A stretch of DNA of 64,000 bases. Origin: Prevotella sp. GTDB lineage: Bacteria; Bacteroidota; Bacteroidia; Bacteroidales; Bacteroidaceae. The stretch is from NCBI GenBank assembly GCA_016291005.1, contig JAEEVT010000003.1, positions 1 through 64,000 on the forward strand, given 5' to 3'. The notes under the pieces were generated by a model. That model searched no databases and was not told the origin of the DNA. It worked only from the letters and a program-made list of their open reading frames with translations. Positions 8,941 through 36,872 of the stretch are shown in pieces (the stretch's first letter is position 1; each line of letters begins with the position of its first letter). The position numbers and the translations under genes were made by a program.

Positions 8941-9561
8941 GTGAATCGCCAAAAGAACATCATCCTCGCAGCACGCATCATGAGCATGCTCTTTACACCG
9001 TTCTACTTGCCCATCGTAGGACTGGCGGTACTCTTCACATTCAGTTATCTGAACATTTTCCCTTGGTCTTACAAGCTACAGACACTCATACTGGCTTATA
9101 TCTTTACCATCCTGATGCCACAGGTCATCATACACCTCTATCGCCGCTATCAGGGATGGAACCTCATAGAACTTGGACACCGCGAACGGCGCATGGTACC
9201 TTATGCCATCTCCATCATCTGCTACTTCACCTGCGTTTACGTCATGGAACGGCTCCACATGCCAAACTTCATGAGCAGTATCATCGTCGCAGCACTGGCA
9301 TTACAAATCGTTTGCGCCATCATCAACGTCTGGTGGAAAATATCTACCCACACGGCAGCCGTCGGTGGTGTAGGTGGAGCACTCTTCGCCTTCTCATTAT
9401 ACCTTGGCTTTAATCCGGTCTGGTGGATGTGTGTGGTATTCATCATTGGAGGCATCCTCGGCACCTGCCGTATGATTCTCCGCCAACACTCCCTCGCTCA
9501 GGTCGTCGTAGGCTTCTGGGTAGGTTTCTTCTGCGCTGCCCTTGCAATACTATTGCTATAA
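8941..9561 (+). CDS. PAP2-like membrane phosphatase-family protein
   Basis: 206 aa, multi-[15 protein letters not shown] and [16 protein letters not shown] resemble PAP2 motifs; GTG start. Confidence 0.7.
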
Positions 9562-9568
9562 ACAGCAT

Positions 9569-9624
9569 GATAACGTAATAACGAAACAACGTGATAACGA
9601 CATAACGAAACAACGAAATAAAGC
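9569..9624. repeat. Degenerate 8-bp tandem array upstream of purE
   Basis: GATAACGT AATAACGA AACAACGT GATAACGA CATAACGA AACAACGA AATAAAGC, ending just before the purE ATG. Confidence 0.85.
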
Positions 9625-31367: not shown

Positions 31368-31694
31368 TTATGGTTGCTTGGGCCTTTGGCTTTCACCTCT
31401 TTTATATAATAAGCGGCCGTCACGCAACACATTGGCCTTGAACTTGGGGTTCTGCACGTTTGCAAAAATATGGGTGTCGAAGAAATAAGGGATGTGTGAA
31501 TCGTACAGCTTGTCATTCAGCATACGGAGCGAACGCTTGGTCAGGTTTCTGCCGATGAGCGAGAGGTCAATATCAGAGGCATGGTCGTAGTTGCCTCTGG
31601 CGCGGGAGCCGTAAATAAGGACTTCCTCCACCTCTGGTACAGAGTCCAGAATCTGTATCAGCTCTTCGTAAGAACGCTCGCTCAATCCGTACAT
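31368..31694 (-). CDS. MNT-type nucleotidyltransferase domain protein
   Basis: 108 aa; VLIYGSRARGNYDHASDIDLSLIG is the GS(x)10DxD motif of pol-beta-type minimal nucleotidyltransferases. Confidence 0.88.
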   Translation of the reverse strand: MYGLSERSYEELIQILDSVPEVEEVLIYGSRARGNYDHASDIDLSLIGRNLTKRSLRMLNDKLYDSHIPYFFDTHIFANVQNPKFKANVLRDGRLLYKRGESQRPKQP

Positions 31695-31807: not shown

Positions 31808-31937
31808 GGTATTCTCTATGAGAAATGCAATTAAAAAAAGTTTAATTCTTTATAATTTTTTACAAAGAACTAATGATTTTAAGTCAAAAATTTCATGTTA
31901 ATTGCAGAAATGAAAAATGAAAGAGTTTTTTGTCAAA

Positions 31938-32486
31938 TTGCCTACACTAATGGCTAACTTGCTGGTTTTCGGTATGTATTTAAGTGTAGGCAAATTATAT
32001 TAGTGTAGGCAAAATCTGAGAAATTGCGAAAATCAAGGGTAATATTTTGCAGAATACGCTATTGTAAACCTAAGAAAAGGGTTGATGAATTCTAAGAATC
32101 GTTGCCGCAAACCTAAGAAAAGGTTGATGAGTTCCAAGAATCGATACAGGAATCATCAAGAAAAGAGATTGTCCCACCCCCTGGGACAATTACTTTTCCT
32201 ATGGATTTCCAGTTGTCCCACCCTCTGGGACTATTGGAAATCTTAAGGAAAAACGACGGAAATCATTAAGAAAAGTTGTTGCTCCACCCCCTGGAGCGAA
32301 CAGAAAAGTAATGGATAAGCAGCGCTTAAGTACCCGTTTTCTGATGGCAAGAAACCTTTTCTGACGATGAAAAGCTTAGTTTCCGATAGCAAAAATGCAC
32401 TTAGTGTAGGCAGTTGCCTACACTAAATAAATTGCATACACCTCTGAAAGTCCTTTCTACAAAGGCATTTCACGTCAGTGTATGCA
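31938..32486. repeat. ORF-less structured repeat region: seven GTGTAGGCA-type copies in both orientations, 43-bp direct repeats, three CCCYC-loop hairpins
   Basis: TTGCCTACACTAA 31938-31950; TAAGTGTAGGCAAA 31981-31994; TTAGTGTAGGCAAAA 32000-32014; TTAGTGTAGGCA-GT-TGCCTACACTAA 32401-32426; variants TTGCATACAC 32432-32441 and GTGTATGCA 32478-32486; AAACCTAAGAAAAGG... at 32066 and 32109; hairpins at 32168-32190, 32194-32252 and 32281-32297. Confidence 0.9.
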
Positions 32487-32535
32487 GTTTGGCAAAAATT
32501 AGCATTCGCGCACGTGCGTAAGAGATCTGTCTCTA

Positions 32536-35304
32536 TCAGTTCGCCATGATGCGGAGGGTCTGCTGGCGACCTTGGCGGTCGGTGACTCGCATGAGATAAA
32601 CTTGATGACGGTTGAGGGCTGGCATCTGGCAACCATTAGAGGATGCTTGGCCACCTTTCATCGAGACCTGGCGGCCGTCGAGGGTGAAGAACTCGCGGCT
32701 GACGATGTCAGCGTCAGTCCAGACAGTGGGAACGGCGGTGGCGTCAGCGGTAACGGCGATGCCGAAGCGCTGGGTGAACGTGGTGGAGCCGTCGTTGACG
32801 GTGACGCTAAGCGTAGTTACGTCACCAGTTGCGCCGCCCTTGGCGGTCAGAACGCCATCAGCGACGGTGGCCGTTGCCGAACCCTCGGTAACGCTGACGG
32901 TATAGGTCGGCGTGACGTTCTGGCCGTTCTGGCCGTAGAAGCCGATGAAATAGGGTTTCAGGTCGAGGGTCTTCGTCTCGCCTGGGGCTAAGACGAGGTA
33001 CGGGTGGGCCATGAACTCGAGGAAGTCGTCGAGCAGGGTCCAGCCGTCTGGCTCAAGACCTTCGTTATGGTCGGCTACAGACGGATTGCTGCCAGTGATG
33101 CGCTCCCACCAGTCGGGCATGCCATCCTGGTCGGTATCGTAGTCGGCGGCACGATGTTCCTCTGGCCATACCTCCCAGCCACCGTTTTCTGCATCGGCGA
33201 TGTCGGCCTCGTTGTCTATCTCGCCCTTGATGCCCGACTTCGATCCCTTATAGGTCCATGTGCCGTCGAGGGTCTCGCGAACGACGCGCTGGTGCTGGTC
33301 GTCGCGCATCGGCATGGTAGCGCCAGCATAACTGGTGACGATCTTCATGGCGTCCTCGGCGGAGTGGATGTTAGCGTACGACTCAAAAAGCGGACCCGAG
33401 ACCAGATAGTCGTAGCTGGTAGGGATGTTGCCCGAGGCGTCGTAGGTGTCGCCCTTCTTGTCTTGCGTCTTCGTGTGGTCTTTGTTCTCGCGGATGTTGC
33501 CGCTGACGTAGGCTTGGTCAGTGCCCGCGGGGTTGATGGCACTCTCGAACTGCTGTGTAAAGAGCTTTTTATGTTTCGTGTCGGCTCCCATCTTGTAGTA
33601 GTTGCCCACGAAGTTCACCATGTGGCAGTTGCCGTCGGTGGTGCGGTTGTGCCAGTTGTAGCAGACGTTATTAAAGAGGTCCAGTCCGCCAATGGGGATG
33701 TTGTTGGCGTCCATACCGCCACCCATCGACCAATTGCGGCCCTCGCAGTTCAGCAGCAGGTTGTGGTGCCACGAGCCTATCTGACCGTCGATGGTCGCCG
33801 CATAGCCGTGGTTGGTGCCGTCGCTGTAGTTCTTGTGTCCCGTGATGCCGAGTGCCTCGAAGATGCCTGAGTACTGGAACGAGATGTTCTTGGCACCTCG
33901 GCCCGAGACGGTCTCGTCGGTTCCCCAGGCTGCGGTACAATGGTCCACGATGGCATGGTTGGCACCTGACATACCCATAGCGTTGCCCGTGTTCTCGCCA
34001 TAGACACCCAGTCCACGCTTGAAACGGACGTAGCGGGCAATGACGTCGGAGCCGATGTTGATGTTCGAAGCCTTGATGCAGATGCCCTTGCCAGGTGCCG
34101 TCTGTCCGGCGATGTAGGCGTAGGGCTTGGTGAAATGGGAGTCGAAGTCGAGCTCGATGATGCCCGAGACGTCGAAGACGATATAGCGGGGCTCATCCAT
34201 CTGGGTCAGTCCGTAGAGCAGCGTGCCTGGCTCGTTGCCGCCTGAGAGCGAGGTGACGTGATAGACCACGCCGCCACGACCACCACGGGCAAAGCGTCCA
34301 TAGCCCTCGGCCTCGGGGAAGGCCAGCTGACGGGGCTGGAACGACCAGACGTTACCCTTGTGAACGTGGCCGTCGGCGTCCACCTCATCGACTCGCCAGT
34401 AGTAGCGCGTCCAGGAATTGAGCCCCTTTATATTATAATAGGTGTCAGTGCCCTCATACTGATGGGTGGTGCTGTTGGCGACGGTAGCCTCGTCGGTACC
34501 ATAGTAGAGGCGGTGTTTCTGAGCCGTCGGACCTGGCGTCCACTTCAGCGTGTAGGAGCCACCCGCAGCATCGAGGTGGTAGTCGCGGCTGGTGGGAATG
34601 GGGTCTTGGGCCACGAAGGGCGACGTGTCGAAGAGCAGTCCGTTCAGCATGACGTTGGTGGTCTGGTAGGTCTTGCCAGACTCCACTACGCTCGCGTATC
34701 TTATATATATAATATCACCTTCGGCCACGTCGAAGTCGACATACGAGAAGGGGGCGTCGGCCATCTTCAGGTTTTCCGGCGTCTGCTGCACATTGGCATA
34801 GTCGACGTTGGTCTGGCGAACCTCGTAGCTGCCGTCGTTGACCTTCAGCTCGACCTGGATCTTTGGCATATCGCCCTTCTTCGGGTCTTTCCATACGTGG
34901 TAAGCCATCACGCTGTGGTGACCTGCGGTCAAACCCGTCACCTTCACCTCCATGGCCGTCGGTGTATCGGTTGACGTCGGGGTATTGTCACCCTGGGCAA
35001 TGAAGGCTGCTACGCCGTCGCCCAACAGGCGCAGACCGACCTGTTCCGTGTCGCGGCCCTTGTTGCAGGTGTTCTTGTGCCACTGGTCGCGCAGCGTGGT
35101 GGCGTTACCTGCCGCCGAGACAGTAATCTCCATGCCGTTGTCGAGCGTCAGGGACGACGAAGGGCTGTGGGGAATCTTCCATTCGATGTAGTCGGGTTCG
35201 TGAGTCTGGGCTTCCTGCGCATTACTGAAGCTGATGTCGATGCGCTGCGCCAGACAGACCATCGTCAGACACAGCATCAGGGATGTAGAGATTAGTTTTT
35301 TCAT
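32536..35304 (-). CDS. Secreted pectate lyase-like polysaccharide lyase
   Basis: 922 aa, signal peptide; EAEGYGRFARGGRGGVVYHVTSL, YIAGQTAPGKGICIKASNINIGSDVIARYVRFKRG, DHCTAAWGTDETVSGRGAKNISFQYSGIFEAL; DQDGMPDWWERITGSNP; C-term FFTLDGRQVSM...VYLMRVTDRQGRQQTLRIMAN. Confidence 0.9.
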   Translation of the reverse strand: MKKLISTSLMLCLTMVCLAQRIDISFSNAQEAQTHEPDYIEWKIPHSPSSSLTLDNGMEITVSAAGNATTLRDQWHKNTCNKGRDTEQVGLRLLGDGVAAFIAQGDNTPTSTDTPTAMEVKVTGLTAGHHSVMAYHVWKDPKKGDMPKIQVELKVNDGSYEVRQTNVDYANVQQTPENLKMADAPFSYVDFDVAEGDIIYIRYASVVESGKTYQTTNVMLNGLLFDTSPFVAQDPIPTSRDYHLDAAGGSYTLKWTPGPTAQKHRLYYGTDEATVANSTTHQYEGTDTYYNIKGLNSWTRYYWRVDEVDADGHVHKGNVWSFQPRQLAFPEAEGYGRFARGGRGGVVYHVTSLSGGNEPGTLLYGLTQMDEPRYIVFDVSGIIELDFDSHFTKPYAYIAGQTAPGKGICIKASNINIGSDVIARYVRFKRGLGVYGENTGNAMGMSGANHAIVDHCTAAWGTDETVSGRGAKNISFQYSGIFEALGITGHKNYSDGTNHGYAATIDGQIGSWHHNLLLNCEGRNWSMGGGMDANNIPIGGLDLFNNVCYNWHNRTTDGNCHMVNFVGNYYKMGADTKHKKLFTQQFESAINPAGTDQAYVSGNIRENKDHTKTQDKKGDTYDASGNIPTSYDYLVSGPLFESYANIHSAEDAMKIVTSYAGATMPMRDDQHQRVVRETLDGTWTYKGSKSGIKGEIDNEADIADAENGGWEVWPEEHRAADYDTDQDGMPDWWERITGSNPSVADHNEGLEPDGWTLLDDFLEFMAHPYLVLAPGETKTLDLKPYFIGFYGQNGQNVTPTYTVSVTEGSATATVADGVLTAKGGATGDVTTLSVTVNDGSTTFTQRFGIAVTADATAVPTVWTDADIVSREFFTLDGRQVSMKGGQASSNGCQMPALNRHQVYLMRVTDRQGRQQTLRIMAN

Positions 35305-35393: not shown

Positions 35394-36872
35394 ATGATAC
35401 ATCCGCTGAAGACTGACATCGAGGCGCCGGAGCGCTTCACCTACCCTTTCTGCTACGAGCCGCATTCGCTGTGCCAGTTGGCGGCCAAGGAAGTGCAGGC
35501 ATATATTGCCAGCCATCCCGAGATACGGGAAGATGCCGACAAGGGGAAGATGTTCGGGGTGCTTGTAGTAGAGGCCTACCCCCGCCCCTCCCAAAAGGGA
35601 GGGGAAGCCTACCCCCGGCCCCTCCACAAGGGAGGGGAGGCCCACCCCAAGGAGATATATGGCTTCTTGGCGGCGTACAGCGGACTGTTGGCGGGAAGGA
35701 ACGACTGGGAATTCTTCGTGCCGCCTGTGTACGACGCCCAACAACCCGACGGATACTTCAAAACCAAAGAGCGCGAAATATCTCTCTTGCACAGTTCGGA
35801 GACTTCTGCAGACCAAAACGCTCTGGAACAAAACTCGGCGGCAGCCGATTCTTCATTCTCCATTCTTCATTCTTCATTTAAAAAACTTTCCCAGGACCTC
35901 CAGCTCTGGCTTTTCCACCAATACCGGCTGCTGAACGCCCGCGGCGAGGAGCGCGACCTGGTGGATCTGTGGCAGGACTACTATAACAAGCCTAAGTTGC
36001 GGAAGAAATTCCCTTTACCCCCCGGCGGAACAGGCGACTGCTGTGCGCCAAAGCTCCTGCAGTATGCCTATCAGCACGGACTGAAGCCACTCTGCATGGC
36101 CGAGTTCTGGTGGGGTGCTTCGACTAAAGAGGAGCTGCGCCAGCACCAGAATTACTACCCTGCCTGTCGCGGCAAGTGCAAGCCCCTGCTGACGTGGATG
36201 TTGCAAGGATTAGACGTCGACCCAGACCCGGAACTGGCTGGTTTTCAGCGCATGGAGATTCCCATCGTGTATGAAGACGAGTGGCTGTTAGTAGTCAACA
36301 AACCCAGCGGCATGCTCAGCACGCCGGGCCGCATCGAGGAGTATTCCGTAGAAACTGTCATGCAGCAGCGCTACCCGGGCAGCATCATCGCCCACCGCTT
36401 GGACATGGGCACCAGTGGCCTGCTCATCGTCTGCAAGTCGCTCGAAGTCTATCGCCCCCTGCAAGAGCAGTTCGTCAAGCACCAAGTGAAGAAGAAATAT
36501 CTGGCGGTATTAGAGCCCATCCCCATCCCAAAGCCTACCCCAAACCCCTCCACAAGGGAGGGGCTTATCTCGTTGCCACTTAGGCCAGACCCGATGAACC
36601 GGCCGCGGCAAGTGGTGGACATGGAGCACGGTAAGCGCGCCGTCACCCGCTACGAGATTCTTAATAATAATAAGGTGGCGCTCTGGCCTGAGACGGGCCG
36701 CACCCACCAGCTACGCATCCATTGCGCACACCCCGACGGTCTTGGCCGACCCATCGTCGGCGACGAACTCTATGGCAGGAAAGGTGAACGGCTGATGCTC
36801 CACGCCTCGGAAATTTGGTTCCGCCACCCCGTCACAGGACAGGAAATGCACTTCGAAACGCCCTTCTTTTGA
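35394..36872 (+). CDS. RluA-family pseudouridine synthase with repeat-derived insertions
   Basis: 492 aa; IVYEDEWLLVVNKPSGMLSTPG, IIAHRLDMGTSGLLIVCKS, KKKYLAVLE, LWPETGRTHQLRIHCAHPDGLGRPIVGDELYG; low-complexity inserts EAYPRPSQKGGEAYPRPLHKGGEAHP and PIPKPTPNPSTREGLI. Confidence 0.93.
   Translation: MIHPLKTDIEAPERFTYPFCYEPHSLCQLAAKEVQAYIASHPEIREDADKGKMFGVLVVEAYPRPSQKGGEAYPRPLHKGGEAHPKEIYGFLAAYSGLLAGRNDWEFFVPPVYDAQQPDGYFKTKEREISLLHSSETSADQNALEQNSAAADSSFSILHSSFKKLSQDLQLWLFHQYRLLNARGEERDLVDLWQDYYNKPKLRKKFPLPPGGTGDCCAPKLLQYAYQHGLKPLCMAEFWWGASTKEELRQHQNYYPACRGKCKPLLTWMLQGLDVDPDPELAGFQRMEIPIVYEDEWLLVVNKPSGMLSTPGRIEEYSVETVMQQRYPGSIIAHRLDMGTSGLLIVCKSLEVYRPLQEQFVKHQVKKKYLAVLEPIPIPKPTPNPSTREGLISLPLRPDPMNRPRQVVDMEHGKRAVTRYEILNNNKVALWPETGRTHQLRIHCAHPDGLGRPIVGDELYGRKGERLMLHASEIWFRHPVTGQEMHFETPFF
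35585..35637. repeat. Two in-frame GC-rich palindromic elements in the RluA-family gene
   Basis: CCCCTCCC-AAAA-GGGAGGGG (35585-35604) and CCCCTCC-ACAAG-GGAGGGG (35619-35637), each preceded by GCCTACCCC. Confidence 0.93.
35848..35879. repeat. Heptamer array (ATTCTTC)~4.5 in the RluA-family coding region
   Basis: ATTCTTC ATTCTCC ATTCTTC ATTCTTC ATTT; encodes SSFSILHSSF. Confidence 0.9.
36530..36563. repeat. Third copy of the GC-rich palindromic element
   Basis: AAGCCTACCCCAAACCCCTCC-ACAAG-GGAGGGG. Confidence 0.9.

Follow-up and report, generated by a model that had tools for sequence, protein, structure and literature searches.

The locus

The window (the whole 64,000-nt stretch of Prevotella DNA that was analysed) contains an 841-bp intergenic region flanked by the gene for a 108-aa nucleotidyltransferase (Polbeta/NTP_transf_2; 31368-31694, minus strand) and by a 922-aa ORF (32536-35304, minus strand) that turns its 3' end toward the region. 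Three GC-rich, perfect hairpins with 6-bp stems and 5-nt loops lie here on the plus strand: hairpin A at 32168-32190 (ATTGTCCCA-CCCCC-TGGGACAAT, with a 17-bp core unit, GTCCCACCCCCTGGGAC, at 32171-32187), hairpin B at 32215-32231 (GTCCCA-CCCTC-TGGGAC), 44 nt from A, and hairpin C at 32281-32297 (GCTCCA-CCCCC-TGGAGC), 66 nt from B. The core CCACCC(C/T)CTGG is common to all three. Dinucleotide shuffling of this region, repeated 2000 times, yielded on average 0.017 such hairpins and never a set with a shared centre.

The hairpins and the extensions of their stems had been described in a sequence-only reading of this DNA, and both were confirmed in the sequence. The stem change that it reported between A/B and C (GTCCCA/TGGGAC becoming GCTCCA/TGGAGC) is indeed compensatory at both positions, and it is found again elsewhere in this genome. 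The CCCYC loop, which it took to be fixed, is not so in relatives. There the two inner loop bases are free to vary and the TTCCCA units (see below) have loops of 3 nt, so that conservation does not lie in the loop, which was rejected as the feature defining the unit.

Folded as single-stranded DNA, positions 32140-32320 reach -33.9 kcal/mol, where shuffled versions average -16.3 kcal/mol (z -5.8), and hairpin A has a terminator-like score on both strands. An Rfam scan of the window returned no family at the gathering score.

A 22-nucleotide register

The hairpins belong to an array (core at 32151-32317, without strand assignment) that matches itself at lags of 22, 44 and 66 nt. The array unit of about 22 nt consists of a 17-bp dyad, or dyad-like sequence, and a 5-nt spacer. 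The distances of 44 and 66 nt between the hairpin centres are filled with units in 22-nt phase, which the earlier reading had missed, as it had the non-palindromic unit X (type GAAATCnnnnGAAAAG), copies of which, in either orientation, separate and surround the hairpins. One X unit keeps the phase between A and B (32193-32209, plus strand; CTTTTCCTATGGATTTC), the same kinds of unit being present in other arrays, and two more were read from the sequence in the opposite orientation at 32237-32253 (GAAATCTTAAGGAAAAA) and 32259-32275 (GAAATCATTAAGAAAAG), both on the minus strand. On the plus strand a half-degenerate continuation of the array, a repeat of about 42 nt present twice (AAACCTAAGAAAAGG...), occupies 32066-32159. 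The combined self-match of 32066-32320 at lags 22, 44 and 66 exceeds that of all 1000 shuffles. For the window copy, the match at lag 22 taken singly is not significant (108 of 1000 shuffles).

Other loci of the same genome display a clearer version of this architecture, with several kinds of unit in one 22-nt register. Within an array the arm sequence is conserved, while loops and spacers vary. The arrays mostly comprise 2-5 units and are scattered over the genome in either orientation; the genome has 13 CCACCCYCTGG cores, compared with none in reversed controls. In genome G034, for which the sample was chosen around arrays, pairs of perfect dyads peak strongly at 22 nt (29 pairs, compared with a mean of 1.2). 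The corresponding peak is weak in the window's own genome (G000) and absent in G016, and hence not every 22-nt array is built of dyads: the arrays of G016 lack clear ones, and the intergenic arrays of G000 include the non-palindromic X units. A strict rule that the outer units are identical and the inner one different holds in some genomes and was rejected because it fails in G134, where the loops were read off.

A composite element with inverted ends

The array lies within inverted ends, also missed before, that carry the motif TTTTTGCCAAATTGCCTACACTAA and GTGTAGGCA repeats. The left terminal inverted repeat is at 31926-32016 on the plus strand (TTTTTTGTCAAATTGCCTACACTAA... plus GTGTAGGCAA repeats) and the right one at 32411-32511 on the minus strand; the left one also aligns with each end of two further copies. 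These are two other loci of the genome with the same ends around arrays of their own; at one of them, L129, the ends are complementary at 90% over 39 nt. The window feature is thus one of three copies of a MITE-like composite, about 590 bp long here, in which terminal inverted repeats enclose a tandem array, as in a MITE that carries a minisatellite. No clear target-site duplication was seen in the flanks of the composite copies, and the exact pattern of the inverted repeats had no match in viral contigs.

The ends of the composite are formed here by a second palindromic repeat with the motif GTGTAGGYA (window 31938-32012 and 32401-32426; L129 2231-2651; L167 10158-10203). In G034, again in a sample chosen around arrays, 24 of 35 sites of this motif are no more than 400 nt from hairpin cores.

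Distribution in Prevotella

The genomes searched are mostly MAGs, that of the window being 82% complete, and exact patterns were used, so that all counts are minima. The pattern TTCCCA-N3-TGGGAA repeated at 22 nt occurs in 48 of 200 genomes of the genus, without any control match, and reaches 77 + 78 (about 155) matches in one genome; it occurs in none of 391 Bacteroidales genomes of other genera. The GTCCCA form (GTCCCACCCNNTGGGAC) is present in 10 of the 200 genomes, 26 times in G034 and never in the reversed control, and the GTTTCC form in 9. Named records with TTGTCCCACCCNNTGGGACAA are mostly Prevotella MAGs, many of them bearing RUG isolate names. Single exact matches in cyanobacteria, Bacillota and Proteobacteria were set aside, as they appear to be isolated chance palindromes. 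Among periods that are not short, 22 is a leading one in tandem-repeat scans of the genus, with unit sequences that are unrelated between species; in other families only one 22-nt array was found in 259 kb. Neighbouring perfect TTCCCA units were separated by a spacer of exactly 7 nt in 119 of 121 cases.

Among 62 arrays, 22 are in tandem, 13 in convergent and 11 in divergent gaps, and 16 in ORFs. The hairpin triplet occurs in viral contigs as well. Such a distribution, over all intergenic contexts, ORFs, both orientations and viral contigs, is in line with mobile DNA rather than with a cis-acting RNA.

At five loci (L019, L020, L035, L058 and L069) hairpin triplets stand just upstream of one and the same gene, the product of which begins M(K/R)(L/V)SI(V/I)RTDKK...; its 70-aa N-terminal piece had no Pfam match.

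Copies inside genes and stem covariation

In-frame triplets of 66 nt (22 codons) lie within an acyltransferase and an ABC-F-like gene (L079, L056 and L063), and more in-frame copies lie in genes for GH106, CobB/CbiA-like, RsmF-like, GH92 and OEP proteins. The coding copies are typically 3 × 22 = 66 nt long and the genes are otherwise intact, which is the behaviour of Rickettsia palindromic elements (RPE). When insert-free proteins were used as queries, inserts were found at matching places in many genomes of the genus, and some members have no array there, so that a site filled in one genome can be empty in another. The arms at the shared sites depend on the species, with their pairing preserved: GTCCCA in one, TTCCCA in G020, GTTTC in G139, and GTACG in G031 and G130. 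G020 and G139 each have a single arm type at both coding sites.

Read from the sequence, TTCCCAnnnTGGGAA is free of stops in every frame unless the loop itself is a stop. None of 113 distinct units has a stop-forming loop; 10.6 would be expected under uniform loops, but the loops are not uniform. Between GGIYDFL and SYAE, the ABC-F linker is hypervariable across the genus: according to species it holds triplets of palindromes, runs of serine or repeats of another kind (L063, L267-L282).

Thirty distinct units from the shared coding sites and the window show two-sided changes at all six stem pairs. Paired cells amount to 91%, against a shuffled mean of 75%, and none of 2000 shuffles was as high. 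Since the set was picked from arrays recognised via their repeats, this figure supports selection and is no proof by itself. That different species have different arms at one site is a fact independent of the set. The compensatory change and the presence of copies in related genomes are strongly supported: relatives without further covarying copies had been named as the outcome that would count against the sequence-only reading, and the copies are abundant and covary.

These data bear on two other explanations. A structured RNA, be it a small RNA, a 3'UTR element or a terminator, would account for the strong folding, the stem covariation and the terminator-like score of hairpin A, which it has on both strands. 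Against it stand the lack of an Rfam match, the species-specific arms, and the occurrence of copies in either orientation, in every intergenic context and in frame within coding sequences. Such an RNA is highly improbable, and the small RNA and the 3'UTR element considered in the sequence-only reading are not supported. The other is the decay and slippage of a plain minisatellite with no selection on the dyad. It agrees with tandem 22-nt units whose members are mixed and degenerate. It does not explain why one 22-nt period persists across species with unrelated unit sequences, nor the dispersal to unrelated loci, nor the compensated arm changes, and is very unlikely.

The mobiliser

The described REP super-families are tagged at their ends by GTAG or CGTC, and many have a cognate Y1 transposase (PMC3733652, PMC6006769). 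A classical REP/BIME system moved by such an enzyme (RAYT/TnpA-REP) would be in keeping with palindromes that are regularly spaced in mixed, BIME-like orientation, as they are here. Bacteroidetes also possess a TnpA-REP subclass, 2.6, with atypical flanking structures (PMC6006769), and a protein of this subclass was found in G034, G107 and G114. The Y1 domain (PF01797) was searched for in 28 genomes and the flanks were inspected. No PF01797 protein was found in G000 (82% complete), in G020, or in the four array-richest genomes (G219, G134, G202 and G035), and where array-bearing genomes do have Y1 loci, these have no adjoining hairpin array of this kind. The feet of the dyads, by reading, are 5-7 variable, A/T-rich nt without a GTAG or CGTC tag. 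A RAYT as the current mobiliser was rejected on the first two grounds; Y1 in this role is largely refuted, and there is little chance that the classical system applies. The same two results point to a different trans-acting factor. Movement of the arrays is itself something that we infer, since sites shared across species could go back to a single old insertion followed by turnover of the units.

G016 has three near-identical Y1 elements (L097, L107 and L114), each with a 153-aa gene containing YIYQQQEHH that is broken in L114. Each copy lies within about 0.6 kb of an array of 22-nt period, a proximity that speaks for the Y1 system and that may reflect a target preference for arrays.

Comparison with known systems

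A literature search, with most subscription papers outside its coverage, found no paper describing the 22-nt array family, which is apparently undescribed. The nearest match to the window composite is BrickBuilt of Porphyromonas gingivalis, a 23-nt minisatellite inside a MITE (PMC4596501). The two have in common the order Bacteroidales, an uninterrupted tandem minisatellite in a MITE-like element, inverted-repeat ends, multiple copies and an intergenic location; BrickBuilt differs in that its unit is 23 nt, a dyad is not described in the text searched, it is always intergenic, and it belongs to P. gingivalis and P. gulae (PMC4596501). The Prevotella arrays, in contrast, have a 22-nt unit that is mostly palindromic and varies in sequence between species, and they also occur in frame in genes.

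According to PMC3733652, RPEs are found in frame in ORFs that likely encode functional proteins and also between genes. By description the Prevotella arrays resemble them, being palindromic repeats in both settings; RPEs belong to another lineage, and 22-nt tandem phasing is not reported for them in the text consulted. With REP/BIME and RAYT systems the arrays share short palindromes, many copies, regular spacing and mixed orientation (PMC2817692, PMC3733652, PMC6006769), but have neither the GTAG/CGTC tag nor a cognate Y1 transposase. PINSR is likewise a high-copy intergenic repeat of Prevotella, but it is a single 188-bp repeat without terminal inverted repeats, confined to an oral clade (P. 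intermedia/nigrescens), and no 22-nt array is described for it (PMC4755523). The best reading is that the array family works like BIME and RPE elements, with a mobiliser that is presumably not Y1.

Interpretation

Of the possibilities raised in the sequence-only reading, that of a mobile palindrome family is supported, and the hairpins are probably units of a mobile, non-coding palindromic repeat family specific to the genus. In spreading, the arrays would behave as non-autonomous mobile DNA. A putative trans-acting protein may recognise the dyad in its extruded or its double-stranded form, and the placing of successive sites two helical turns apart may be part of that recognition, through which the units of one genome would be homogenised together. 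The window array would then be an older intergenic copy with mixed units and not a regulatory RNA.

Alternatively, in line with the protein-binding array that the sequence-only reading listed, the arrays may be operator-like sites for a sequence-specific DNA-binding protein, nucleoid-associated or regulatory. A distance of 22 bp between dyads would set its dimers on the same face of the helix, and the arms would co-evolve with the protein. The strict phase and the dyad would suit such a protein, as would the variable loops and spacers and the species-specific arms common to dispersed loci (two sites each in G020 and G139). Promoter-side positions are not favoured, and 16 of 62 arrays lie within ORFs; the explanation is an unlikely one.

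A bolder form of the mobile-family reading can be put forward tentatively, as possible rather than probable. The arrays could represent a new class of mobile DNA, palindromic and phased at 22 bp, with in-frame insertion into housekeeping genes. A putative non-Y1 protein, its specificity co-evolving with the arms, would copy and homogenise them across the whole genome, and each Prevotella lineage would have its own version at the same sites.

Prevotella is abundant in the rumen and in many human guts. With dozens of sites per genome, and about 22 residues added in frame to conserved enzymes, the family has consequences there for gene annotation, for the evolution of proteins and for genome instability. 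The coding sites that species share, with their different arms, amount to a natural experiment in how every copy of a repeat comes to be rewritten within a genome and in what protein does the reading, and the family offers testable sites for the spread of bacterial palindromic repeats that have no known mobiliser.

The window contains other repeats as well. Short tandem arrays with a period of 8/24 nt are located at 789-855 and 9560-9621 (TCGTTATAACGG, ATAACGAA), and a 33-nt tandem repeat with a palindromic core (GCCTACCCCCGGCCCCTCCAAAAGGGAGGGGAA) is located at 35574-35648, in frame inside a 492-aa ORF (35394-36872).
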